Shown here piece after piece: positions 11,719 to 46,276 of a DNA stretch of 64,000 bases (within the stretch, counting starts at the first letter, position 1; each line of letters begins with the position of its first letter). The notes beneath the pieces were generated by a model. The model was not told the origin of the DNA. It saw nothing but the letters and a program-made list of their open reading frames with translations, and made no database searches. Location: positions 310,001 through 374,000 of the forward strand of contig NZ_JAGQEE010000005.1 in the NCBI RefSeq assembly GCF_018304945.1, written 5' to 3'. The stretch is from Collimonas humicola (GTDB lineage: Bacteria; Pseudomonadota; Gammaproteobacteria; Burkholderiales; Burkholderiaceae_D). The translations under genes and the position numbers were made by a program.

Positions 11719-11784
11719 AGTCTCCTCCAACTCTCCCTAAGTTTTGGATTTAACCCGCCGCCGCAAGGCAGGCGGGTTTTTTTT
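11719..11784 (+). ncRNA. Candidate small RNA with an anti-Shine-Dalgarno motif
   Basis: On the plus strand, opposite to both flanking genes, TCTCCTCCAACTCTCCCT (11721-11738) is followed by a perfect intrinsic terminator at 11752-11784. A possible promoter is TTGAAA (11686-11691) with CAATAT (11707-11712), spacing 15. The transcript would be about 65 nt with a free CU-rich region complementary to ribosome-binding sites. Known CU-rich betaproteobacterial and alphaproteobacterial small RNAs have this design. No protein frame explains the terminator on this strand. Start position is a guess. Confidence 0.45.
11752..11784 (+). terminator. Strong intrinsic terminator on the plus strand
   Basis: AACCCGCC (11752-11759) pairs with GGCGGGTT (11771-11778), and inside it GCC-GCAA-GGC closes a GNRA tetraloop; eight T follow (11777-11784). 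On the minus strand there is no T-tract after the hairpin, so it does not obviously serve the response regulator gene that ends at 11783. Confidence 0.8.
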
Positions 11785-12526
11785 AGATCGACATGCTGCG
11801 CAACATCTTCGACGCTTCCCGGTTGGCGACCAGCAGGGTGCCGTCGCGCATCTGGATTTGCAGCTGAGACTGGTCATCCGCCCTCATCGATTCGACAAAA
11901 TCCAGGTTGATCAAGGTTGAGCGGTGGATGCGGATGAATTTTCCCGGGTCGAGCCGCGTACTCAGTTCCGATAGTCCGATGCGCACCAGGAAGGTTTTTT
12001 TCCTGGCTGCGATCACGGTGTATTTTTCTTCCGATTTCAGATATTCGATCTCATCCGTCGCCAGCGGGAAAATATGGCCGCGGTCGCGTACCAGGATCCG
12101 CTTCAGCATGGCGGTTTCCTGCTCGGCTGCCTGCTTCAGCGCCAATTGCAGCAGATCCTTGGATGGCACGGCAACCTCCAGCAATCGTTCGACAGCGGCA
12201 TCAAAGCGCTCGCGCGAGAACGGCTTGAGGAGATAGTCGATCGCGTTCAGCTCGAACGCGATGACCGCATACTGGTCATAGGCGGTGGTAAAGATGAAGT
12301 CCGGCGCGTGGGTCAGGCGCTGCAGCACTTCCAGGCCGGTCATTTCCGGCATTTGAATATCCATGAACACGGCATCGGGCGCCAGCTTGTCGATCTGTTT
12401 CAGGGCGCTGGCGCCATCGGCGGCTTCGCCGATCAGGCGCAGCTGCGGATGCGCCTGGATCCAGTCGCGCAAGGTTTCCCGGGCGAGCGGTTCATCTTCT
12501 GCAATAAAGACGGTTTTCGTTTTCAT
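11783..12526 (-). CDS. LytTR-family response regulator
   Basis: 247 residues: receiver domain (about 1-125) with the acidic pair in IAEDEP, phosphoacceptor Asp56 in VFMDIQMPEMTG and Lys in YLLKPF; then a LytTR DNA-binding domain (about 140-245) with IEYLKSEEKYTVI and the IRIHRSTLINLDFV motif. It is the output partner of the histidine kinase encoded immediately upstream (gap 45 bases). LytTR/AlgR-type regulators typically control exoproteins, polysaccharide or surface functions. The collagenase lies downstream on the same strand after a 319-base gap, so it is a plausible but unproven target. Confidence 0.93.
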   Translation of the reverse strand: MKTKTVFIAEDEPLARETLRDWIQAHPQLRLIGEAADGASALKQIDKLAPDAVFMDIQMPEMTGLEVLQRLTHAPDFIFTTAYDQYAVIAFELNAIDYLLKPFSRERFDAAVERLLEVAVPSKDLLQLALKQAAEQETAMLKRILVRDRGHIFPLATDEIEYLKSEEKYTVIAARKKTFLVRIGLSELSTRLDPGKFIRIHRSTLINLDFVESMRADDQSQLQIQMRDGTLLVANREASKMLRSMSI

Positions 12527-36200: not shown

Positions 36201-36324
36201 GGTGGTGGGCGGGCTGGTGGTCGCCACCATGCTGACCCTGTTCATCCTTCCCGCTTTCTATTATTCGCTGGAAAACTGGATTGAACGCCGCCGCGGCATC
36301 AGTAAAGAGCGTGACGGACGCTAA
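33229..36324 (+). CDS. Heavy-metal-type RND efflux pump (CzcA/CusA family)
   Basis: 1031 residues, complete. Twelve membrane helices and two periplasmic loops are expected. Transmembrane helix 4 reads LGAIDFGIIVDGAIVVTEAV: the Asp-Phe-Gly and Asp399, Glu406 of divalent-cation HME pumps are present, but the usual Glu-Asn pair is Glu-Ala. The three Met ligands of CusA are not matched, so copper is unlikely. The neighbours are an adaptor without metal-binding extension and a lipoprotein channel. Divalent metal export is the most likely role; an organic substrate is possible. Confidence 0.9.
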   Translation: MINKIVRYCLQKRYAVILVVLMVTLFGYYSWTRMAVEAYPELSDVTAQVTTQAPGLAAEEVEQQITIPLERQLSGTPGLVHMRSSSTFGLSLITLTFKDGAEDYWERQRVTERMTQAALPAGITPSLDSVTSAAGEIYRYTLESDSKNLMELSEIQRWIVIPELQQVPGIAEVGNFGGLTMEYQLEVDQQQLQRFGVSLSDVTTAINSNNANAGGSRITRGEQGYVVRGIGLMRSLTDLGNVVVKQSGGVPVLVRDLGKLQYSHQERQGILGKDRNPDTIEGIVKLLKYQNASEVIKDVHAKVAQLQKQLAPMGVKIVPYIDRDDLIELTIHKVGHTVLEGIGLVCIVLILFLGSPRSALVAAVTIPLALVAVFIMMYLTKMPANLFSLGAIDFGIIVDGAIVVTEAVLRRREAKPEAELSETDVRDATTEVIRPIFFATLIIIVAYLPLFAFERAEGKLLSPMAFTVSYALIGALVCSIVLVPGLAYMALHKPRRIFHNKPLEWLSAGYRKTLGRLLANPAVSYGLGALALAGVIVLGAATGREFMPNMDEGTLWLQVQMPSGLSLEKGSEMASELRRTLLEFPEVSYAVTQLGRSDDGTDPWTPSHMEVPVGLKPYSTWANGETKEQFVHKLNQRLSQLPGFSIGISQPISDGVNDAVGGAHSPLVIRVYGDDFKELRRIGEQIVTVLKQVRGTADVAIFQEPPVPQVAIDIDRAAAARLGINVADIAALIQTGIGGAPVTQLYVADRVHNVTVRFAKNSRNSPEALGNLLLTTASGARIPLSQVTHIRTTTGESTIAHENTHRQLTVRLDYADRDLLSYYQEAQVQVAQKVNFDKASYRLEWAGQFENQERAQSRLILVFGLVLGLMAVILYAGFGKLRQALLILGVVPLAALGGLIALRVTNGTINVATGVGFIALFGVAVQNGIIMVSNINRVRRQGMALRDAVLAGAFERFRPVLMTATVASVGMLPAALATGVGTDVQRGLATVVVGGLVVATMLTLFILPAFYYSLENWIERRRGISKERDGR

Positions 36325-36355
36325 GGCGCGGGATAAAAAACGAGCAGGTAAAAAT

Positions 36356-37846
36356 ATGAATACAACGAAATTGCATTTCAATCGGCCGCTGAGAATCTCC
36401 GTGATGGCAGTAGCGCTGGCGCTGGCCGGTTGCGCCGCCGGACCGGATTTCAAGCAGCCGGATGCGCCACAGGTCAAGGGGTACACGAAAGAGCCGCTGC
36501 AGACAAGAACCTCGTCCGCAGAGACCGTCGGCGGCGCTGCCCAGCAGTTCGTCGAAGGCATGGATATTCCCGCCCAGTGGTGGACTCTGTTCAATTCGCC
36601 GGCATTGAATGCCGTCATCGAACAGGCGCTCAAGGCCAATCCGGATCTGCAATCGGCGCAGGCGGCGCTGCGTGCCGCCCAGGAACAGGTGTCGGCGCAG
36701 CAGGGCGCGTTCCTGCCGAGCGTCAACGCCAGCCTGGCGCCGACCCGGCAGAAGCAGCCGGTGTCGGCGGGACAGGGCACATCGCCGTTCAACCTGCACA
36801 CCGCCCAGGTCAGCGTTTCCTACACGCTGGACGCGTTCGGCGGCAACCGCCGCCAGGTGGAAGCTTTGCAAGCCCAGGCCGAGCAGCAGAAATACCTGCT
36901 GGAAGCGGCTTACCTGACGCTGACCTCGAACGTGGTCGCGGCCGCCGTGCAGGAAGCCGCACTGCGGGCGCAGATCGCGGCGACACAGGAAGTGCTCAAG
37001 GTGCAGGGCGAATTGCTGACGCTGCTGCAGCGCCAGTACCAGCTGGGCGATGTGGCCCAGGCCGACGTCCTGGCGCAGCAGGCGGCCCTGGCGCAGACCC
37101 AGGCCAGCCTGCCGCCTCTGCTGAAATCGCTGGCGCTGCAGCGCGACCTGCTGACGGTATTGGCAGGGCGTTTCCCGAGCGAAGAGCTGGAGCAGAAATT
37201 CGATCTGGCCAGCCTCAGCCTGCCGCAGCAACTGCCGCTCAGCCTGCCTTCAAGCCTGGTGCAGCAGCGCCCTGACATCCGTTCGGCGGAAGCGCAGCTG
37301 CATGCCGCCAGCGCCGCTGTCGGTGTGGCTACCGCCAATATGCTGCCGCAGATTACCCTGAGCGCCAATATCGGCAGCGCCGCCGCGCAGATGGGGGATT
37401 TGTTCACCTCGGGCACCGGCCTGTGGAGCCTGGTCGGCGGCCTGACCCAGCCCCTGTTCGCCGGCGGCGCATTGCTGCACAAGAAGCGTGCCTCGGAAGC
37501 CTTGCTGGAACAAGCCGCGGCACAGTATCAAAGCACGGTGATACACGCCTTCCAGAACGTCGCCGACAGCCTGCGCGCCTTGCAGTACGATGCCGACGCC
37601 CTGCAGGCGCAGTATCTGGCCGAGCGCGCTGCTGCGCGCAGCCTGGAGATTTCGCGCAAATCGGTGCAGCTTGGCGCGGCCACGCCGCAGACCTTGCTGA
37701 CGGCGCAGCAAACCTATCAGCAGGCGGTAATCAGCCTGGCGCAGGCGCAGGCGGCGCGCTTTGCCGATACGGCGGCGCTGTTCCAGGCGCTGGGCGGGGG
37801 CTGGTGGAATCGCGGCGAGCCGTTGGCGGCCGCAACAGCGCGGTAA
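36356..37846 (+). CDS. Outer-membrane efflux lipoprotein (NodT/OprM family)
   Basis: 496 residues from the ATG at 36356, preceded by AGCAGGTAAA; the frame is open from 36281 inside the pump gene but that extension is unlikely. Lipoprotein signal with lipobox LAGC at about residue 22-23, then two outer-membrane efflux repeats (ALKANPDLQSAQAALRAAQEQ and QRPDIRSAEAQLHAASAAVG) typical of the TolC-like channels of RND pumps. Last gene of the operon; supplies the exit duct for the adaptor and pump upstream. Confidence 0.93.
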   Translation: MNTTKLHFNRPLRISVMAVALALAGCAAGPDFKQPDAPQVKGYTKEPLQTRTSSAETVGGAAQQFVEGMDIPAQWWTLFNSPALNAVIEQALKANPDLQSAQAALRAAQEQVSAQQGAFLPSVNASLAPTRQKQPVSAGQGTSPFNLHTAQVSVSYTLDAFGGNRRQVEALQAQAEQQKYLLEAAYLTLTSNVVAAAVQEAALRAQIAATQEVLKVQGELLTLLQRQYQLGDVAQADVLAQQAALAQTQASLPPLLKSLALQRDLLTVLAGRFPSEELEQKFDLASLSLPQQLPLSLPSSLVQQRPDIRSAEAQLHAASAAVGVATANMLPQITLSANIGSAAAQMGDLFTSGTGLWSLVGGLTQPLFAGGALLHKKRASEALLEQAAAQYQSTVIHAFQNVADSLRALQYDADALQAQYLAERAAARSLEISRKSVQLGAATPQTLLTAQQTYQQAVISLAQAQAARFADTAALFQALGGGWWNRGEPLAAATAR

Positions 37847-37911
37847 ATGCGCCGTTCAGCCGGAAATTGGGCGGCGCTTTAGGCAGATTAGCAACAGCGC
37901 ATGTTGCGCGC

Positions 37912-37942
37912 TTGCCATGCAGCATAAATTTTCTGGTATGAT
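37912..37942 (+). promoter_or_regulatory. Promoter of the thrS operon
   Basis: An extended -10, TGGTATGAT (TATGAT at 37937-37942), with TTGCCA at 37912-37917 as a weak -35 (spacing 19). Transcription would begin near 37949, about 75 bases before the Thr-rich leader ORF. Confidence 0.5.
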
Positions 37943-38025
37943 CGGAAGCATCCTGTTGTCGTCATTCCCGGCGGCGCAGCTGTAATGAATTCAACATCTG
38001 TAAGAGCGAGAAAGGCATCCCGGTT

Positions 38026-38067
38026 ATGACACCGCGAACTACCACCACAATCTGTGAGCGACGCTAG
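38026..38067 (+). CDS. Putative Thr-rich leader peptide of thrS
   Basis: ATG at 38026 starts a 13-codon ORF, MTPRTTTTICERR, ending with TAG at 38065-38067. Five of thirteen residues are Thr, four of them consecutive (ACT ACC ACC ACA), followed by Ile. AAAGG (38011-38015) lies 10 bases before the ATG. A terminator hairpin follows 28 bases after the stop, and thrS, encoding threonyl-tRNA synthetase, begins at 38205. This is the classical layout of ribosome-mediated attenuation, in which shortage of charged tRNA-Thr would stall the ribosome and allow read-through. The peptide itself would have no further function. Confidence 0.7.
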   Translation: MTPRTTTTICERR

Positions 38068-38094
38068 TCGAGGCCTTTTTCTACCTGCAAGATG

Positions 38095-38124
38095 AAAAAA
38101 GCGCGGCTGGTCCGCGTTTTTTTT
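38095..38124 (+). terminator. Intrinsic terminator (attenuator) before thrS
   Basis: CGCGG (38102-38106) pairs with CCGCG (38112-38116), flanked by A6 (38095-38100) and T8 (38117-38124). TCCGCGTTTTT is repeated at 38127-38137, giving a second possible 3' arm. CTTTTTC (38075-38081) can pair with GAAAAAAG (38094-38101) and would compete with the terminator stem. Confidence 0.75.
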
Positions 38125-38204
38125 CGTCCGCGTTTTTGTAAAGCAACCGTTCAACTTAATTCAATCCGGCGTCGTTCCAAGTGAGCGCCGATATGAGGCC
38201 CAAA

Positions 38205-40112
38205 ATGATAGCAGTCAAACTTCCCGATGGTTCACAGCGTCAATTCGAAGCGCCGCTGACTGTGGCGCAGGTCGCCGCCAGCATCGGCGCCGGCCTGGCC
38301 AAGGCGGCTTTGGCCGGCAAGGTCGACGGCAAGCTGGTCGACACTTCTTTCCTGATCGAGCGCGATGTCGAGCTGGCGATCGTGACCGACAAGGATGCCG
38401 ACGGCCTGGAAGTGATACGCCATTCGACAGCGCATTTGCTGGCCTACGCGGTCAAGGAGCTGTTTCCTGACGCGCAGGTGACGATCGGACCGGTGATCGA
38501 AAACGGCTTTTACTACGATTTCGCCTACAAGCGTCCGTTTACGCCGGAAGACTTGCTGGAAATCGAAAAGAAGATGGCCGAGCTGGCCAAGAAGGATGAG
38601 CCCGTCACGCGCAAGGTGGTGGCGCGCGATGAAGCGATTGCCTATTTTGAATCGATCGGCGAAGCTTACAAGGCGGAGCTGATCGGCTCGATCCCGCAAG
38701 ACCAGGAAGTCTCGCTCTACACAGAAGGCAAGTTCACCGACCTGTGCCGCGGCCCGCACGTGCCGTCGACCGGCAAGCTGAAGGTATTCAAGCTGATGAA
38801 GCTGGCCGGCGCATACTGGCGCGGCGACGCCAAGAATGAAATGCTGCAGCGGGTGTACGGCACTGCCTGGGCCAAGAAGGATGAGCAGGAAGCCTATCTG
38901 CACATGCTGGAAGAGGCGGAAAAGCGCGATCACCGCAAGCTGGGCCGCGCACTCGACCTGTTCCACTTCCAGGACGAAGCGCCGGGCCTGATTTTCTGGC
39001 ACGCCAAGGGCTGGACGATCTGGCAGCAGGTCGAACAGTTCATGCGCCGTGTCTATAACGACAATGGTTATCAGGAAGTCAAGGCGCCGCAGATCCTCGA
39101 CCGTTCCTTGTGGGAAAGGACCGGCCACTGGGAAAATTATCGCGAAAGCATGTTCACCACCGAATCGGAAAACCGCAGCTATGCGCTGAAGCCGATGAAC
39201 TGCCCTGGCCATATCCAGATTTTCAATTCCAGCCTGCACAGCTATCGCGACCTGCCTTTGCGTTTCGGCGAATTCGGCCAGTGCCATCGCAACGAGCCGT
39301 CCGGCGCCTTGCACGGCATGATGCGGGTGCGCGGCTTTACCCAGGATGACGGCCATATTTTCTGTACAGAAGAGCAGATACAGGAAGAGGTTGCCGTCTT
39401 CGACAAGCTGGTGCGCAAGGTCTATCTCGATTTCGGCTTTAGTGAAGTGGCGGTCAAGCTGGCCCTGCGTCCTGAAAAGCGGGTCGGCGAGGAAGAGGTC
39501 TGGGACAAGGCGGAAAGCGCCTTGCGCGAAGCCATCCGTGCTTCCGGCGCCGAGTGGGAAGAATTGCCGGGCGAGGGCGCCTTCTATGGCCCGAAGATCG
39601 AGTACCACCTGAAGGATTCGATCGGCCGTTCCTGGCAGTGCGGCACCATGCAGGTCGATTTTTCCATGCCGGGCCGCCTCGGTTCGGAATATGTCACTGA
39701 AGATAATGGCCGCAAAGTACCGGTCATGCTGCATCGTGCTATTGTCGGCTCGCTGGAGCGTTTTATCGGGATGCTGATCGAAAATCACGCCGGCGCCATG
39801 CCCTTGTGGCTTGCGCCAGTGCAAGTTGTTGTTTTGAATATCTCCGACGCCCAGTCGGAATATGTCCAAAATGTTGCACAAACGCTGAAAAAACAAGGGT
39901 TTAGGGTAGAGACGGATTTGCGTAATGAGAAGATTACCTATAAAATACGGCAGCATTCTTTGCAGAAGCCGCCTTATATACTGGTTGTCGGTGATAAAGA
40001 GCGGGATGCAAACACAGTGGCCGTGCGAGCGCGGGGCAATGTCGATCTGGGTGTGATGCCTATCGACGTACTGGTGGAGCGCCTCAGGAACGAGGTCGAG
40101 ACCAAAGCCTGA
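38205..40112 (+). CDS. thrS: Threonine-tRNA ligase
   Basis: 635 residues (E. coli 642). Start at 38205 ([10 protein letters not shown]) because TGAGG is 7 bases upstream; a GTG at 38181 and an ATG at 38193 are in frame. Domains: TGS (1-62), editing domain with [16 protein letters not shown] and the [11 protein letters not shown] zinc-like region (about 65-225), class II catalytic core with motif 2 [11 protein letters not shown]-type [15 protein letters not shown] and the zinc Cys in LKPMNCPGH, then the anticodon domain. It charges tRNA-Thr. First gene of the translation operon and probably controlled by the Thr-rich leader upstream. Confidence 0.98.
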
Positions 40113-40171
40113 ACGGGATGACCCAAGCGCAAGAGCACGGCTTAATTATTTGATTTTTAAAGGAAACTGCA

Positions 40172-40696
40172 ATAGCTACGGACAAGTCACATCGCATCAA
40201 CGGCGAAATTACGGCGCCAGAATTGCGCTTATCCGGTGTCGAGAACGAAGCACTCGGTATCGTCAGTCTGGCTGAGGCTTTCCGCCTGGCGGAAGAGGCA
40301 AACGTTGATCTGGTGGAAATCGCACCGACAGCCCAGCCGCCGGTAGCCCGTTTGATGGACTACGGCAAGTTCAAGTACCAGGAACAGAAGAAGGCGCACG
40401 AGGCCAAGTTGAAGCAGAAGGTCATCCTGGTGAAGGAAGTCAAATTCCGCCCGGGTACCGATGATGGTGATTACAACATCAAACTGCGCAACCTGACCCG
40501 CTTCCTGGACGAAGACGGCGACAAGGTCAAGATCACGCTGCGTTTCCGCGGTCGTGAAATGGCTCACCAGGACATCGGTATGCGCATGCTGGAACGTCTG
40601 AAAGCAGACCTGGAGCCGTACGGACAGGTCGAGCAGTGGCCGAAGATGGAAGGGCGCCAGATGATCATGATCATTGGCCCGAAGAAGAAAAAGTAA
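40172..40696 (+). CDS. infC: Translation initiation factor IF-3, ATA start codon
   Basis: 174 residues starting at an ATA codon (40172) seven bases after AAAGGA. The reading [21 protein letters not shown] from that codon matches the N-terminus of betaproteobacterial IF-3; the first usual start codon (TTG at 40223) would remove 17 conserved residues. Domains: N-domain to about 80, linker [19 protein letters not shown]-domain to the basic end PKKKK. IF-3 proofreads start codons, and a non-standard start codon in its own gene lets it repress its synthesis, as with AUU in E. coli. Lies 59 bases after thrS. Confidence 0.95.
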
Positions 40697-40892
40697 TTTG
40701 GGTTTAGGCGACTTGGATGAGCAATTGTCCAGATCGCCCAAAAGCAGCAGGCGAGATCCTGCTGCGAAATCCAGCTGTGGCAGTCGTGCAGCTGGGTTTA
40801 AACAAGTGAGAGCAGGCATCCAAGCGTAACGATATTGTTGCCACCTGCAATCATGTTAAAAAAGGAGCTGTCCCTAGAGGACAGATAGTGTC
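40697..40892 (+). other. infC-rpmI spacer with three hairpins
   Basis: Three consecutive inverted repeats: TTGGG/CCCAA region (40698-40741), GCAGCAGG/CCTGCTGC (40744-40751/40758-40765) and CCAGCTG/CAGCTGG (40771-40777/40789-40795). None has a T-tract. In E. coli the region before rpmI contains the binding structure for ribosomal protein L20, so an autoregulatory role is plausible. Confidence 0.45.
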
Positions 40893-41090
40893 ATGCCTAA
40901 AATGAAAACGAAGAGCAGCGCCAAAAAGCGCTTCCGCGTCCGTCCAGGTGGTACCGTTAAACGCGGCCAAGCGTTCAAACGTCACATCCTGACCAAGAAA
41001 ACCACCAAGAACAAACGTCAATTGCGCGGTTCCGTCGGTGTCCATGATACAAACATGGCTTCCGTTACCCGCATGATGCCAACCGCTTAA
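40893..41090 (+). CDS. rpmI: 50S ribosomal protein L35
   Basis: 65 residues, the normal size. [20 protein letters not shown] and the [18 protein letters not shown] core are diagnostic of bL35, a small basic protein of the large ribosomal subunit. It follows infC after a 196-base structured spacer and precedes rplT by 20 bases, the conserved order. AAAAGGAG lies about 26 bases upstream and a nearer AGAGGACAG is the likely ribosome site. Confidence 0.98.
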
Positions 41091-41110
41091 CCTCATACTA
41101 AGGAGTTATT

Positions 41111-41470
41111 ATGCCTAGAGTAAAACGTGGGGTTACAGCTCGTGCCCGTCATAAAAAAGTTCTCAACCTTGCCAAGGGTTACCGCGGTCGCCGCAGCAGA
41201 GTCTACCGTGTAGCCAAGCAAGCAGTCATGCGCGCTGGTCAATACGCATACCGTGACCGCCGCAACAAGAAGCGCGTATTCCGTGCATTGTGGATCGCCC
41301 GTATCAACGCCGCTTCCCGTGAGCATGGCATGACATACAGCGTATTCATGAACGGTCTGAAGCGTGCTTCGATCGAACTGGACCGCAAGGTTCTGGCTGA
41401 TATGGCAGTGATGGACAAGCCAGCGTTTGCTGCGATTGTCAATCAAGTCAAAGCCAACATCGCTGCGTAA
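41111..41470 (+). CDS. rplT: 50S ribosomal protein L20
   Basis: 119 residues, typical. [30 protein letters not shown] is the conserved basic N-terminal arm of bL20, and the globular C-terminal half has [20 protein letters not shown]. It is required early in assembly of the large subunit and, in E. coli, represses the rpmI-rplT message. AAGGAG is 6 bases before the ATG. A strong intrinsic terminator follows before pheS. Confidence 0.98.
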
Positions 41471-41485
41471 GTTTCTTATGTAGTT

Positions 41486-41518
41486 TTGCCAATGCCGCGC
41501 AGTTCTGCGGCGTGGCAA
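41486..41518 (+). other. Strong hairpin after rplT
   Basis: TTGCCA (41486-41491) pairs with TGGCAA (41513-41518) and GCCGC (41494-41498) with GCGGC (41507-41511). No T-tract follows; it is just upstream of a second hairpin that has one. Confidence 0.5.
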
Positions 41519-41525
41519 TCCCGAG

Positions 41526-41565
41526 CGGGGCAGAGGTCAACACCTTGTGCCCCGTTTGTGTTTTT
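41526..41565 (+). terminator. Intrinsic terminator between rplT and pheS
   Basis: CGGGGCA (41526-41532) pairs with TGCCCCG (41548-41554), with AGGT-CAAC-ACCT inside, followed by TTTGTGTTTTT. It separates the L20 gene from pheS; partial read-through or attenuation would set pheST expression. No Phe-rich leader ORF is visible in front of it. Confidence 0.7.
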
Positions 41566-41687
41566 AACCGCCACTTTTCGTGTTTGCGGAAGAGTTCAAG
41601 AGGCGCCTGGCCTGTCCCGTGGCGCATTGCTCTGTCCCTGACTGGATAGATGGATGTATTTCGGCTTCAATGGAGCAGGAAAACTGC

Positions 41688-42704
41688 ATGAACTCCCTAG
41701 AACAACTAGTAACGCAAGCCCAGGCTGATTTCATCGCCGCCGTCGACGCCGCCGCGCTGGAAAACGCGAAAGCCAAATATCTCGGCAAGACCGGCCAGAT
41801 CACCGAGCAGATGAAGGGGCTGGGCAAGCTGGCGCCGGACGAGCGTAAAGTCCAGGGCGCAGTCATCAATAACGCCAAAGAGCAGATCGAAGCCGCGCTG
41901 ACCGCACGCCGCGATGGCTTGGCCAATGCGCAGATGCAAGAGCGCCTGAACGCGGAAGCAATCGACGTCACCTTGCCGGGCCGCGGCCGCGGCGTCGGCG
42001 GCATCCATCCTGTGATGCGTTCCTGGCAGCGCATCGAAGAAATTTTCCGTTCGATCGGTTTCGATGTGGCCGACGGCCCCGAAATCGAAACCGACTGGAC
42101 CAACTTTACCGCCCTGAACAGCCCGGAAAACCATCCGGCGCGTTCGATGCAGGATACCTTCTACATCGAAGGCAACGACACTGAAGGCAAGCCGCTGCTG
42201 CTGCGCACCCACACCAGCCCGATGCAGGTGCGTTACGCGCGCATGAACAAGCCGCCGATCAAGGTCATCGCTCCGGGCCGCACCTATCGCGTCGACAGCG
42301 ACGCCACCCATTCGCCGATGTTCCATCAGGTCGAAGGCTTGTGGATTGCCGAAGACATCAGCTTTGCCGACCTCAAGGGCGTCTACCTGAATTTCGTCAA
42401 GGCCTTCTTTGAAACCGACGATCTGCAAGTGCGTTTCCGCCCGTCCTATTTCCCGTTCACCGAGCCTTCGGCCGAGATCGACATTGCCTTCGGCAGCGGT
42501 CCGCTGAAAGGGCGCTGGCTGGAAGTGTCGGGCGCAGGCCAGGTGCATCCTAACGTGGTGCGCAACATGGGCCTGGATCCGGAACAGTTCATCGGTTTTG
42601 CGTTCGGCTCCGGCATCGAACGCCTGACCATGCTCCGTTACGGCATCAACGATCTGCGCCTGTTCTACGAAGGCGATCTGCGTTTCCTGAAACAATTTAA
42701 TTAA
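41688..42704 (+). CDS. pheS: Phenylalanine-tRNA ligase alpha subunit
   Basis: 338 residues from the ATG at 41688, preceded by GGAGCAGGA; the frame from 41580 has no family similarity. N-terminal coiled coil (about 1-90), then the class II core with [19 protein letters not shown], the motif 2 region [18 protein letters not shown] and [15 protein letters not shown], and the ending [19 protein letters not shown]. Together with PheT it forms the alpha2-beta2 enzyme charging tRNA-Phe. The gap to pheT holds a palindromic repeat. Confidence 0.98.
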
Positions 42705-42739
42705 ACTGGCGAGCTTTGGTGCTGGCACGAACACTACAC

Positions 42740-42807
42740 CGTCATCCCCGCGAACGCAGGGATCCAGGTTACGAGCAAAATGGATTCCCGCGTTCGCGGG
42801 AATGACG
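42740..42807. repeat. Palindromic repeat element between pheS and pheT
   Basis: CGTCATCCCCGCGAACGCAG at the left (42740-42766) is an inverted copy of the right end (42781-42807, ending CGCGGGAATGACG), 24 of 27 positions matching; each arm has its own palindrome around ATTCCCGCG. This type of GTCATTCCCGCG element is dispersed in many betaproteobacterial genomes. Confidence 0.75.
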
Positions 42808-42878
42808 CCAAGGGTGATTTTCTGCAGGCGCCGAATAGTCACCTAAAATCCTGATACAGGTTTTTGAAGGTTTTACCT

Positions 42879-45305
42879 ATGCAATTCTCTGAAAGCTGGC
42901 TGCGTTCCATGGTCGATCCGAAGATGACTTCGGACGAATTGTCCCATCTGCTGACCATGTCCGGTCTCGAAGTGGAAGAGGTCGAGCCGGTCGCGCCGCC
43001 CTTTACCAATATCGTGGTGGGCCTGGTGGTCGAGACCGCCAAGCATCCGAATGCCGATCGCCTGAATGTCTGCCAGGTCGATGTCGGCGCCGGCGCCATG
43101 CTCAATATCGTGTGCGGCGCGCCTAATGTGCGCCCTGGCCTCAAGGTGCCTTGCGCCATGGTCGGCGCCATCCTGCCGCCGGGCGCGGACGGCAAGCCGT
43201 TCGAGATCAAGCTGGGCCAGCTGCGCGGCGTCGAGTCGCAAGGCATGCTGTGTTCGGCGCGCGAACTGAAGCTGTCGGAAGACCACGGCGGCTTGCTGGA
43301 ACTGCCGGACGATGCGCCGGTCGGCCAGAATTTCCGCGATTACTTCGAACTGAACGACCTCAAGTTCACCATCAAGCTGACGCCGAACAAGGCGGATTGC
43401 CTGTCGGTGCTGGGCGTGGCGCGCGAAGTGTCAGCCTTGACCGGCACCCCGCTGAAGCAGCCGGTGTTCAAGGCTGTCAGCGCCAACATTACTGAAACGC
43501 TGCCGGTCAAGATTTCGGCGCCCGATCTGTGCGGCCGTTTCTCCGGCCGCGTGATCCGCGGCCTCAACGCCAAGGCGCCGACGCCGCAATGGATGAAGCA
43601 GCGCCTGGAGCGCAGCGGCCAGCGCCCGATCTCGGCGCTGGTGGACATTTCCAACTACGTAATGCTGGAGCTGGGCCGCCCTAGCCACGTGTTCGACCTC
43701 GACAAGATCCACGGCGGCCTCGATGTCCGCTGGGGCAAGGCCGGCGAATCGCTCAAGCTGTTGAACGGCAATACCGTCAGCGTTGACGAATGGATCGGCG
43801 TGATCGCCGACGACCGGCAGATCGAATCGCTGGCCGGCATCATGGGCGGCGACGCCACGGCAGTTTCGCTGGAAACGCAAAACATCTACCTGGAAGCCGC
43901 CTTCTGGTGGCCGCAAGCGATCCAGGGCCGCGCCCGCCGCTTCAATTTCTCGACCGATGCCGGCCATCGCTTCGAGCGCGGCGTCGATTTCGCCTCCACC
44001 GTGGAACATATCGAGCGGATTACCGCCTTGCTGGTCGAAATCTGCGGTACGCCTGCGACCCAGATCGGCCCGATCGACGATCAAAGCGTCAATCTGCCGA
44101 AGCGCGATCCTGTCAAGGTGCGCACTTCGCGCGCGATCCGCGTCATCGGCGTGCCTTTGTCGGATAGCCAGATCGCCGATATCTTCACGCGCCTGGGCCT
44201 GGCGTTCACGCAAGAGAACGGCGTGTTCTCGGTGACGCCGCCGTCCTACCGTTTCGATATCGAGATCGAGGAAGACCTGATCGAGGAAATCGCCCGCGTC
44301 TACGGCTTTGAAAATATCCCGGCCTTGCCGCCGGTAGCGCCGAACGCCATGTACATCGCGCCGGAGAATCAGCGCTCGCTGTTTACCACGCGACGGCAGC
44401 TGGCGGACCTGGATTACCAGGAGGTGATCAACTTCAGCTTCGTCGAAGCCGCATGGGAAGCCGATTTCGCCGGCAACCTGGCGCCGATCAAGGTGCTCAA
44501 TCCGATCGCCAGCCAGATGGGCGTGATGCGCTCGACCCTGATCGGAAGCCTGATCGCCAACGTCAAATACAATCTGAACCGCAAGCTGAACCGGGTGCGG
44601 ATTTTTGAAACCGGCGCGGTCTACATGCGCGACCAGCAAGTCGAGAACGGTCCGCTGTCGGTAGCCGGCTACGCGCAGCCGAAGCGGGTCGCTGCCCTGG
44701 CCTACGGCCCGCAAGCAGACGAACAGTGGGGCCAGGCCAGCCGCACCGTCGATTTCTTCGACGTCAAGGCTGATCTGGAAGCCCTGTTTGCGCCGGTGGT
44801 TTTGCGTTTCGCTAAACTTGAACATCCGGCGCTGCATCCCGGCCGTTCGGCGCAAGTGCTGCTGGGCGATAAAGTCGTCGGTTTCATCGGCGAGCTGCAC
44901 CCGCGCCTGCAACAGAAATATGAGCTGCCTTTGGCGCCGGTTGTGTTCGAAGTCGACGGCTTGGCGTTGCAGCAAAGGCAAGTGCCGGCTTACGTCGAAA
45001 TTTCGAAATTCCCGGCGGTGGTGCGCGATCTTGCAGTGGTGGTGAAACAAGCGGTTTATGCGCAGGATTTACTGGACGTTTTTGCTGCTGAGCAGCAAGG
45101 AAATCCAGCATGCCGGATTCTGCAAGCCATTGTTTTATTTGATGAATATCATGGCAAAGGGTTGGAAAATGACGAAAAAAGTCTTGCTTTCCGTTTTACC
45201 TTGCAAGATACTGAAAACACCCTCCAAGATGACACCGTAGAAGCCGCCATGGCTGCTTTGATCGCTGCTGTCAACAAGGTGCCAACAGCAAGATTACGCG
45301 CCTGA
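42879..45305 (+). CDS. pheT: Phenylalanine-tRNA ligase beta subunit
   Basis: 808 residues from the ATG at 42879, with GAAGG 8 bases upstream. N-terminal tRNA-binding domain (about 40-150, [19 protein letters not shown]), B3/B4 editing region ([25 protein letters not shown]), B5 domain ([20 protein letters not shown]), core-like region and the C-terminal anticodon-binding fold ([15 protein letters not shown]). Length and domain order are normal. It partners PheS. The next gene is ihfA, as in E. coli. Confidence 0.98.
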
Positions 45306-45428
45306 TTTGCCCTCGGACAGCGTAATCTAATGATAAAACCTGCAGCAAAAAAAGCCGGATGCACGCGTTTGTAGAAGCACGCGTGGCGCCGGCGGCAGCA
45401 ATCCAGAAGACAGGGGCGTAACAACAGA

Positions 45429-45872
45429 ATGAACAATATGCAGACAGTAGAATTTGAATCCGTTCTGGACGCCGATCTGAACCGGGCGATGCGTGAAGCG
45501 CAAGCCCGCTCGCAGGCAGAAAAGAATTTGCCGACACTGACCAAGGCGGAGCTGGCTGAACTTTTGTTTGAACAGGTTGGCCTCAACAAGCGTGAAGCCA
45601 AAGACATGGTGGAAACATTTTTCGATGAAATCCGCGATGCCCTGGAGCGTGGCGAGTCGGTGAAGTTGTCCGGCTTCGGCAATTTCCAGCTGCGCGACAA
45701 GCCGCAGCGTCCGGGCCGCAATCCGAAAACCGGGGAAGAGATTCCCATCACTGCCCGTCGCGTGGTGACTTTCCACGCCAGTCAGAAACTCAAGGGCATG
45801 GTTGAAGCCGCAAGCCTGCAACCCATCCAGCCTATCCAACAGTTTGCCGCCGCTCTCCCAGCTAATTCATGA
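45429..45872 (+). CDS. ihfA: Integration host factor alpha subunit, extended
   Basis: 147 residues, longer than the 99 of E. coli: about 36 extra residues before the conserved [29 protein letters not shown], and a tail [19 protein letters not shown]. The DNA-binding arm carries the expected [30 protein letters not shown] bends DNA and works in transcription, recombination and replication. The ATG lacks a strong ribosome site; an internal ATG at 45489 would give a shorter form. Overlaps the next start as ATGA. Confidence 0.94.
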
Positions 45873-46276
45873 ACGATCGCATTAGTAAATCCGAGCTTGT
45901 CGTATTGCCGCCGATTCCGGCCAAGCGTTATTTCACCATAGGCGAAGTCAGCGACCTGTGCGGCGTCAAGCCGCATGTGCTGCGCTATTGGGAACAGGAA
46001 TTCACCCAGCTGAAGCCGGTCAAGCGGCGCGGCAACCGCCGTTATTACCAGCATCACGAAGTGTTGTTGATCCGTCGCATCCGCGAGCTGCTGTACGAAC
46101 ATGGCTTCACCATCAGCGGCGCGCGCAACAAGCTTGACGGCCGCCTGGGCGCCGCCGCGGAAGCCGAGCAGGCTGTTGAAGCCAAGCAGAACGAGGTGAA
46201 TCTGGTCGAGGTGCGCCACGAGCTTGAGCAGATACTTGAACTGCTGATACCTAAAACCGAGCCAGCCGTAGAATAA
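45869..46276 (+). CDS. MerR-family transcriptional regulator (ihfA-linked)
   Basis: 135 residues. One MerR winged helix, [26 protein letters not shown] with [37 protein letters not shown], and a short helical tail without Cys or a ligand domain. This protein is found directly after ihfA across proteobacteria; its target is unknown. Start overlaps the ihfA stop (ATGA), so translation is coupled. Terminator follows immediately, ending the thrS-ihfA operon. Confidence 0.93.

Follow-up and report, generated by a model that had tools for sequence, protein, structure and literature searches.

A threonine-codon leader ORF and intrinsic terminator upstream of thrS in Collimonas humicola and its relatives: a likely transcription attenuator

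Features of the leader locus

In the window, i.e. the whole 64,000-nucleotide stretch of Collimonas humicola DNA that was analyzed, the threonyl-tRNA synthetase gene thrS (635 aa, 38205-40112, + strand, ATG at 38205) was recognized by its Pfam domains tRNA-synt_2b, HGTP_anticodon, tRNA_SAD and TGS. All leader features described below lie ahead of it on the same strand. An outer-membrane efflux gene (36281-37846, Pfam OEP) ends upstream of a promoter-like site at 37912-37942, read from the sequence as TTGCCA and TATGAT separated by 19 nt, with an extended -10 (TGGTATGAT) that is retained in 11 out of 12 same-genus relatives, the exception (L237) having TATCAT. A consensus scan with a spacer limit of 18 returned no promoter-like site at the leader, the spacer of the candidate itself being 19 nt. 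A Shine-Dalgarno sequence, AAAGG (38011-38015), is followed by a leader ORF of 13 codons, MTPRTTTTICERR (38026-38067), which starts with ATG at 38026, stops with TAG at 38065-38067 and is supported by the sequence, by relatives and by an in-frame excess of Thr codons. Four of its Thr codons stand in a row, ACT ACC ACC ACA (38038-38049), and a further ACA is codon 2.

Between the ORF and thrS lies an intrinsic terminator, consisting of the 5' arm GAAAAAAGCGCGG (38094-38106), an intervening CTGGT, the 3' arm CCGCG (38112-38116) and a run of eight T (38117-38124), from which 80 nt separate thrS in the window. A generic terminator scanner did not list this + strand terminator, presumably because its stem extends into A/T pairs and thereby uses up the T run; folding does show it. 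The ORF with its AAAGG, the Thr run, the terminator with T8 and thrS had all been placed by an earlier note on this DNA, and every one of its coordinates agrees with our reading of the sequence. The same is true of the tract CTTTTTC at 38075-38081 and of the tandem repeat of the terminator 3' arm, whose second copy, TCCGCGTTTTT (38128-38138), is a candidate alternative partner of the 5' arm. Stretches similar to this copy occur in several relatives, and it could be a backup terminator.

Recurrence before thrS in relatives

Named thrS loci were taken from the best 80 of at least 582 relatives and are hence not a random sample; together with the window they make 81 loci. A leader pattern with open synonymous sites, ATGACNCCN(CGN/AGR)ACN, was searched for up to 1.5 kb upstream of thrS, and ORFs starting with MTPRT were found in 30 of the 81. 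The close named kin of the window among these best 80 are Massilia, Duganella, Janthinobacterium and Oxalicibacterium. A 17-base core pattern was present, nearly always once, in 247 out of 294 genomes of the same family, the reversed-pattern control matching in 5 out of 294; no match was obtained in 13 of the 44 genera of the window's family. Altogether 154 distinct leader sequences were collected. All of them are followed, at most 600 nt further on, by the LPD motif found at the ThrRS N-terminus, which is a lenient test. Part of this set was supplied by a pattern search in which most core bases were fixed, and the invariance of these bases within it is therefore no evidence; statements on codons rest instead on the open-pattern search (81 loci) and on a codon-blind search for R-T-x-T leaders (see below).

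For a sample of the whole order, 144 of 149 thrS matches were used, leaving out the window's own and the partial or edge matches G147, G060, G089 and G127, and removal of a duplicate (L126) gave 143 loci. Beyond the window's group, other Thr-rich leaders occupy the same place in this sample, e.g. MSFRTTTTGTLNLG, MFRTCTTTWC, MFKRTTTTRISR, MPRTRTTTGFFSRRG and MQLNRTTTTS. A terminator was called by script at 89 of the 143 loci and a Thr-rich short ORF preceded it at 23; when the sequences were dinucleotide-shuffled 40 times, such loci numbered 1.2 on average and never more than 3. At the class level, 20 out of 68 genomes from other orders of the same class were picked by hand; none of the 20 had an R-T-x-T leader, one of them (L360) having MSTTTAQR. 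The latter peptide, and MSTTSSQR upstream of thrS in L048 (a Lysobacterales record), are possibly independent Thr leaders.

Among 31 terminator-bearing leaders there are 13 in which 24-35 nt lie between the end of the terminator and the thrS match. Since this leaves little room for a promoter, the terminator probably belongs to thrS and transcripts most likely pass it. The earlier note had held that the leader would be fortuitous if relatives kept the terminator without the Thr codons; when their upstream regions were compared, many were found to keep both together. Because of this recurrence before thrS across relatives, sequence comparison indicates that the arrangement of Thr ORF and terminator is not fortuitous.

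Selection for threonine

At leader positions 6-8, Thr codons account for 93 out of 207 in frame, whereas the two remaining frames give 7 and 6 out of 207, and the Thr codons at position 6 vary in their third base (ACG 12, ACC 11, ACA 11, ACT 3). This in-frame excess, together with the varied third bases, argues that threonine itself is under selection as an amino acid. Short ORFs rich in a given residue and located before terminators were also counted for all twenty amino acids, a count in which single matches can be spurious (e.g. L052). Among the named loci (best 80 of at least 582 relatives; 58 out of 80 with a terminator), Thr led with 25 out of 80, followed by Ser with 8. In the order sample (143 loci), Thr gave 23, Val 20 and the next residue, Arg, 5. 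The Val signal is attributed to a tRNA-Val gene read as protein, because the same ORFs recur among those of the order sample, and among the named loci no other residue comes comparably close to Thr. A tRNA-Val(GAC) gene was seen upstream of thrS in four of five relatives scanned (L085-L088) and was absent in the fifth (L084) and in the window; the leaders of the four may be co-transcribed with it. Fourteen of 69 non-redundant MTPRT leaders contain only two Thr, which is unexpected under a plain Thr-run model.

Competing RNA helices

The leader RNA was divided into regions by complementarity. Region 1a is the Shine-Dalgarno stretch GAGAAAGGC (38008-38016), which is complementary to 38073-38081 and forms nine contiguous pairs in the fold of the window, so CTTTTTC can pair with the leader's own Shine-Dalgarno sequence; in relatives such pairing runs reach 12 (L037). 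Region 1b (38035-38041) is the CGA-ACT dicodon plus the next A, i.e. CGAACUA, complementary with one bulge to UAGUCG at the stop codon. Region 2 (38064-38081) comprises CUAGUCG (38064-38070) and the pyrimidine tract CUUUUUC (38075-38081), whereas region 3 (38094-38111), the terminator 5' arm with the loop, can take as its partner either region 2 or region 4, the terminator 3' arm with T8 (38112-38124). Regions 2 and 4 are backed by folding and by pair counts.

Folding of the window gave three alternative structures: Shine-Dalgarno/region 1 with the post-stop stretch (-23.9 kcal/mol), the region 2:3 antiterminator (-16.7 kcal/mol) and the terminator (-15.2 kcal/mol). The similar energies of the latter two were counted in favor of an attenuator. 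When the whole 2:3:4 stretch was folded, the window, L279 and L315 adopted the antiterminator, whereas the nine further sequences that were folded adopted the terminator. The earlier note had cast CTTTTTC as the antiterminator strand. An antiterminator can indeed form by folding, but within the terminator stem CTTTTTC pairs solely with the A-tract, and the predicted structure also includes the pairing of CUAGUCG at the stop codon with CGGCUGG (38104-38110), which had been omitted.

For the comparison of helices, the 10 out of 154 leader sequences in which the script found no terminator were dropped, and 69 were kept at less than 88% similarity, the window included. In this kin of the window, region 2:3 pairs were formed in 95.4% of cells (slid controls 24-43%), region 3:4 pairs in 97.2% (52-79%) and region 1b:2 pairs in 91.7% (6-40%), the helix model having been derived from the same 69 sequences, which favors it over the slid controls. 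In addition, own pairs of Shine-Dalgarno and post-stop stretches beat swapped ones in the 69 sequences (permutation p 0.0002, with a statistic that ignores kinship). Thus, of the stem conservation with compensatory changes that the earlier note had looked to, the first half is borne out, as the named pairs are mostly formed, but the changes are mainly one-sided (U-A/U-G/C-G) or the positions invariant, and the few two-sided changes lie in the terminator. Shuffle tests gave mean z values over the 69 of -1.22 for Shine-Dalgarno:post-stop, -0.60 for Thr-codon region:post-stop and -1.90 for post-stop:terminator arm; in the window itself the values were -1.10, -0.38 and, for region 2:3, -1.29. Shuffling thus lends the predicted helices moderate support, and for the protector helix 1:2 the mean z values of -0.60 and -1.22 stand beside the 91.7% of pairs formed. 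In 24 other sequences, p was at most 0.1 in 2 out of 24 (1:2) and 6 out of 24 (2:3), and the support for the modeled helices is weak there. By folding, the leader RNA is capable of a series of mutually competing helices of the trp type.

As a whole, the 251-nt region folds no better than its shuffles (z -0.57; 57 out of 200 shuffles at least equal), and this score was set aside as uninformative. RNAalifold, run on a different set of 69 sequences (less than 93% similarity, window included), mainly recovered the terminator and short local hairpins. Named helices were therefore counted instead, because mutually exclusive helices cannot appear together in such a consensus. Another candidate antiterminator strand, a CCGCG in the leader facing CGCGG of the terminator, was rejected by eye, as L007 and L010 alter the terminator and not the leader. 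The stretch GGTTATGACACCGCG (38022-38037) is conserved beyond coding needs, and folding predicts that CGGU and ACCG form a hairpin there whose loop contains the start codon.

Interpretation as an attenuator

An ORF with a ribosome-binding site after a promoter-like site, Thr codons in frame, a terminator and a predicted antiterminator overlapping the leader stop are all found at this locus, and the leader very probably acts on thrS as a transcription attenuator of the ribosome-mediated kind, with charged threonyl-tRNA as the signal sensed. The ORF, the selection for Thr, the terminator, the helix complementarity and the recurrence were computed; from them we infer the regulation, i.e. the transcription start, leader translation, ribosome positions, switching, the response to Thr-tRNA and the reach to downstream genes. 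Of the proposal in the earlier note that stalling at Thr codons controls thrS, this analysis bears out that a Thr leader with a terminator recurs before thrS and that Thr is selected in frame.

RNA polymerase would start near 37950 and transcribe the leader ORF. With scarce Thr-tRNA, the ribosome would halt when one of the Thr codons at positions 5-8 is in its A site and, given the usual footprint sizes, cover approximately 38020-38050, which would mask region 1b and leave region 2 free to pair with region 3, so that no terminator would form and thrS would be transcribed. With ample Thr-tRNA, a ribosome at the stop codon would cover region 2, and regions 3 and 4 would pair and cause termination. 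If the leader were not translated at all, Shine-Dalgarno/region 1 would pair with region 2, making the terminator the default. The leader would thus most likely raise enzyme output when charged threonine tRNA runs short.

Three other explanations were weighed. That ThrRS binds its own leader, the short ORF being incidental, would match the autoregulation known for E. coli thrS and the conservation of GTTATGACACCGCGAAC, which exceeds what Thr codons need at the nucleotide level; it is nevertheless improbable, given how strongly Thr codons are enriched in frame while their third bases vary, the terminator between ORF and thrS, and the leaders of other lineages, which keep the Thr codons and not the surrounding RNA. 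Nor do we give much credit to a leader that sets basal, translation-coupled read-through or senses translation in general, for example by Shine-Dalgarno:pyrimidine-tract pairing that controls leader translation, with Thr being incidental. The helix in question (9 pairs in the window and up to 12 in L037) and the leaders with two Thr only would fit such a role, but it leaves the Thr enrichment before thrS unaccounted for, even though Val is nearly equal in the order sample (20 versus 23), a signal ascribed to the tRNA-Val gene. Finally, the terminator could simply end the transcript of a gene or tRNA further upstream, with the thrS promoter lying behind it, a reading for which the tRNA-Val in four out of five relatives scanned and the 80 nt between T run and thrS in the window would leave scope; it is very improbable in view of the 24-35 nt spacing in 13 of 31 leaders, the conserved ORF directly before the terminator and the promoter-like site ahead of the leader in the window.

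Relation to known systems

Ribosome-mediated attenuators such as those of pheST, trp and thr are of a textbook kind. The pheST attenuator of enterobacteria shares with the leader proposed here a leader peptide rich in the cognate residue, an intrinsic terminator and the same gene neighborhood, whereas here thrS and Thr codons are concerned, at the head of the cluster. The thrABC leader (Rfam RF00506) likewise has Thr codons read by the ribosome and a terminator with an antiterminator, but precedes a biosynthetic operon and not a synthetase gene. The E. coli thrS operator controls the same gene; there, however, a protein binds the mRNA and acts on translation, while the present locus has a Thr leader ORF followed by a terminator. 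RF00506 (Thr_leader) scored 16.6 bits at the window leader, below its gathering score of 55, which places the leader outside that family. No T-box riboswitch was matched in the window at the gathering threshold, nor was one among the eight Rfam matches that 37850-38240 gave at E values of 10 or less. At the gathering threshold, Rfam 15 gave no family for the thrS leader, the window's one match at that level being elsewhere. A Betaproteobacteria toxic small RNA (RF02278) was matched at 11719-11785 with 51.1 bits (gathering 50).

No description of a thrS leader peptide was found in the literature searched; Lopatovskaya et al. 2010, reportedly on attenuation of amino acid and aminoacyl-tRNA operons, may already list one, and Vitreschak et al. 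2004 is another possible source of an earlier thrS prediction. A thrS attenuator in betaproteobacteria may therefore be new, or it may have been predicted before. E. coli thrS is mentioned as being under ThrRS control in PMC2965389, which also reports that in bacilli His leader peptides precede hisZ as well as an additional (second) paralog of hisS. These His leaders resemble the leader proposed here in that a leader of the cognate amino acid stands before a gene of the synthetase family, but they concern another amino acid and another phylum. If the attenuator reading is true, thrS, whose repression by its own enzyme is the classic case in E. coli, would be controlled by a ribosome-read leader in many betaproteobacteria.

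The CGA-ACT dicodon

The codon-blind search for R-T-x-T leaders before thrS, with ten shuffle rounds, returned 31 of the 80 named loci (best 80 of at least 582; shuffles 2.3) and 28 of the 143 order-sample loci (shuffles 3.6). It found none at the remaining 49 out of 80 named loci (again of the best 80 of at least 582) and 115 out of 143 order-sample loci, and it misses some known MTPRT leaders. In the resulting 59 leaders (including those from the best 80 of at least 582), whose loci share ancestry and are not independent events, the Arg codon was CGA in 57; the first of the Thr codons was ACT in 51, ACG in 7 and ACA in 1. A hand count of the 33 that do not start with MTPRT (same named-locus scope, best 80 of at least 582) gave CGA in 32 and ACT in 26. 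A plain Thr-run model would not have predicted that CGA-ACT is so nearly constant. CGA is a rare codon, making up 4 out of 274 Arg codons in ten ORFs of the window. At the 30 MTPRT loci (among the best 80 of at least 582 plus the window), the codons were ACA in 30 out of 30, CCG in 30 out of 30 and CGA in 29 out of 30.

Pairing of region 1b was considered as a general cause of the CGAACU conservation and rejected, since its complement is not clearly enriched in divergent leaders: after the stop codon, GTTCG was found in 6 out of 28 of them (shuffles 3.3, maximum 8) and AGTTCG in 3 out of 28 (shuffles 0.9, maximum 4), and in 24 other MTPRT sequences GTTCG occurred in 5 (shuffles 2.2, maximum 6). 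In the window's kin, TAGTCG is present in 28 of 45 sequences (shuffles 0.8, maximum 6). Because the complement is enriched in these kin and not clearly in divergent leaders, pairing may explain the conservation in the window's kin and, as far as the sequences indicate, does not across the order. Neither the Thr codons nor pairing thus appears to account for the conservation of CGA-ACT across otherwise unlike leaders.

One tentative and rather doubtful explanation is that the sensor is the CGA-ACU dicodon and not the Thr run. A rare Arg codon in the P site, presumably read by inosine wobble, would weaken the next decoding and make ACU exceptionally sensitive to threonyl-tRNA, and this dicodon would be what betaproteobacterial thrS leaders retain as the remaining peptide and the RNA helices drift. 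Such a codon-context effect on stalling at CGA-ACT is a guess, to which the inhibitory CGA codon pairs reported in yeast (PMC6301793) are a parallel. The dicodon offers a direct way to ask whether codon context tunes attenuators.

The downstream gene cluster

Downstream of thrS, on the same strand, Pfam domains identify infC, rpmI, rplT, pheS, pheT, an IHF/HU-family gene and a MerR-family gene (40172-46276). A terminator scan of 37800-43500 gave a single + strand terminator-like site, at 39806-39829 inside thrS. Judging from the gene order, co-transcription of the infC-to-MerR cluster with thrS is possible, and uncharged Thr-tRNA would then, if the attenuator reading is true, be a single signal that may govern a group of clustered translation genes. 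A hairpin, CGGGGCA..TGCCCCG, followed by TTTGTGTTTTT (41526-41565), is located right before pheS and is a possible pheST attenuator; no Phe-rich leader was seen by eye near it. The start codon of infC is apparently ATA (40172-40174), which is non-standard, with AAGGA upstream at 40160-40164; the start codon of E. coli infC is AUU.
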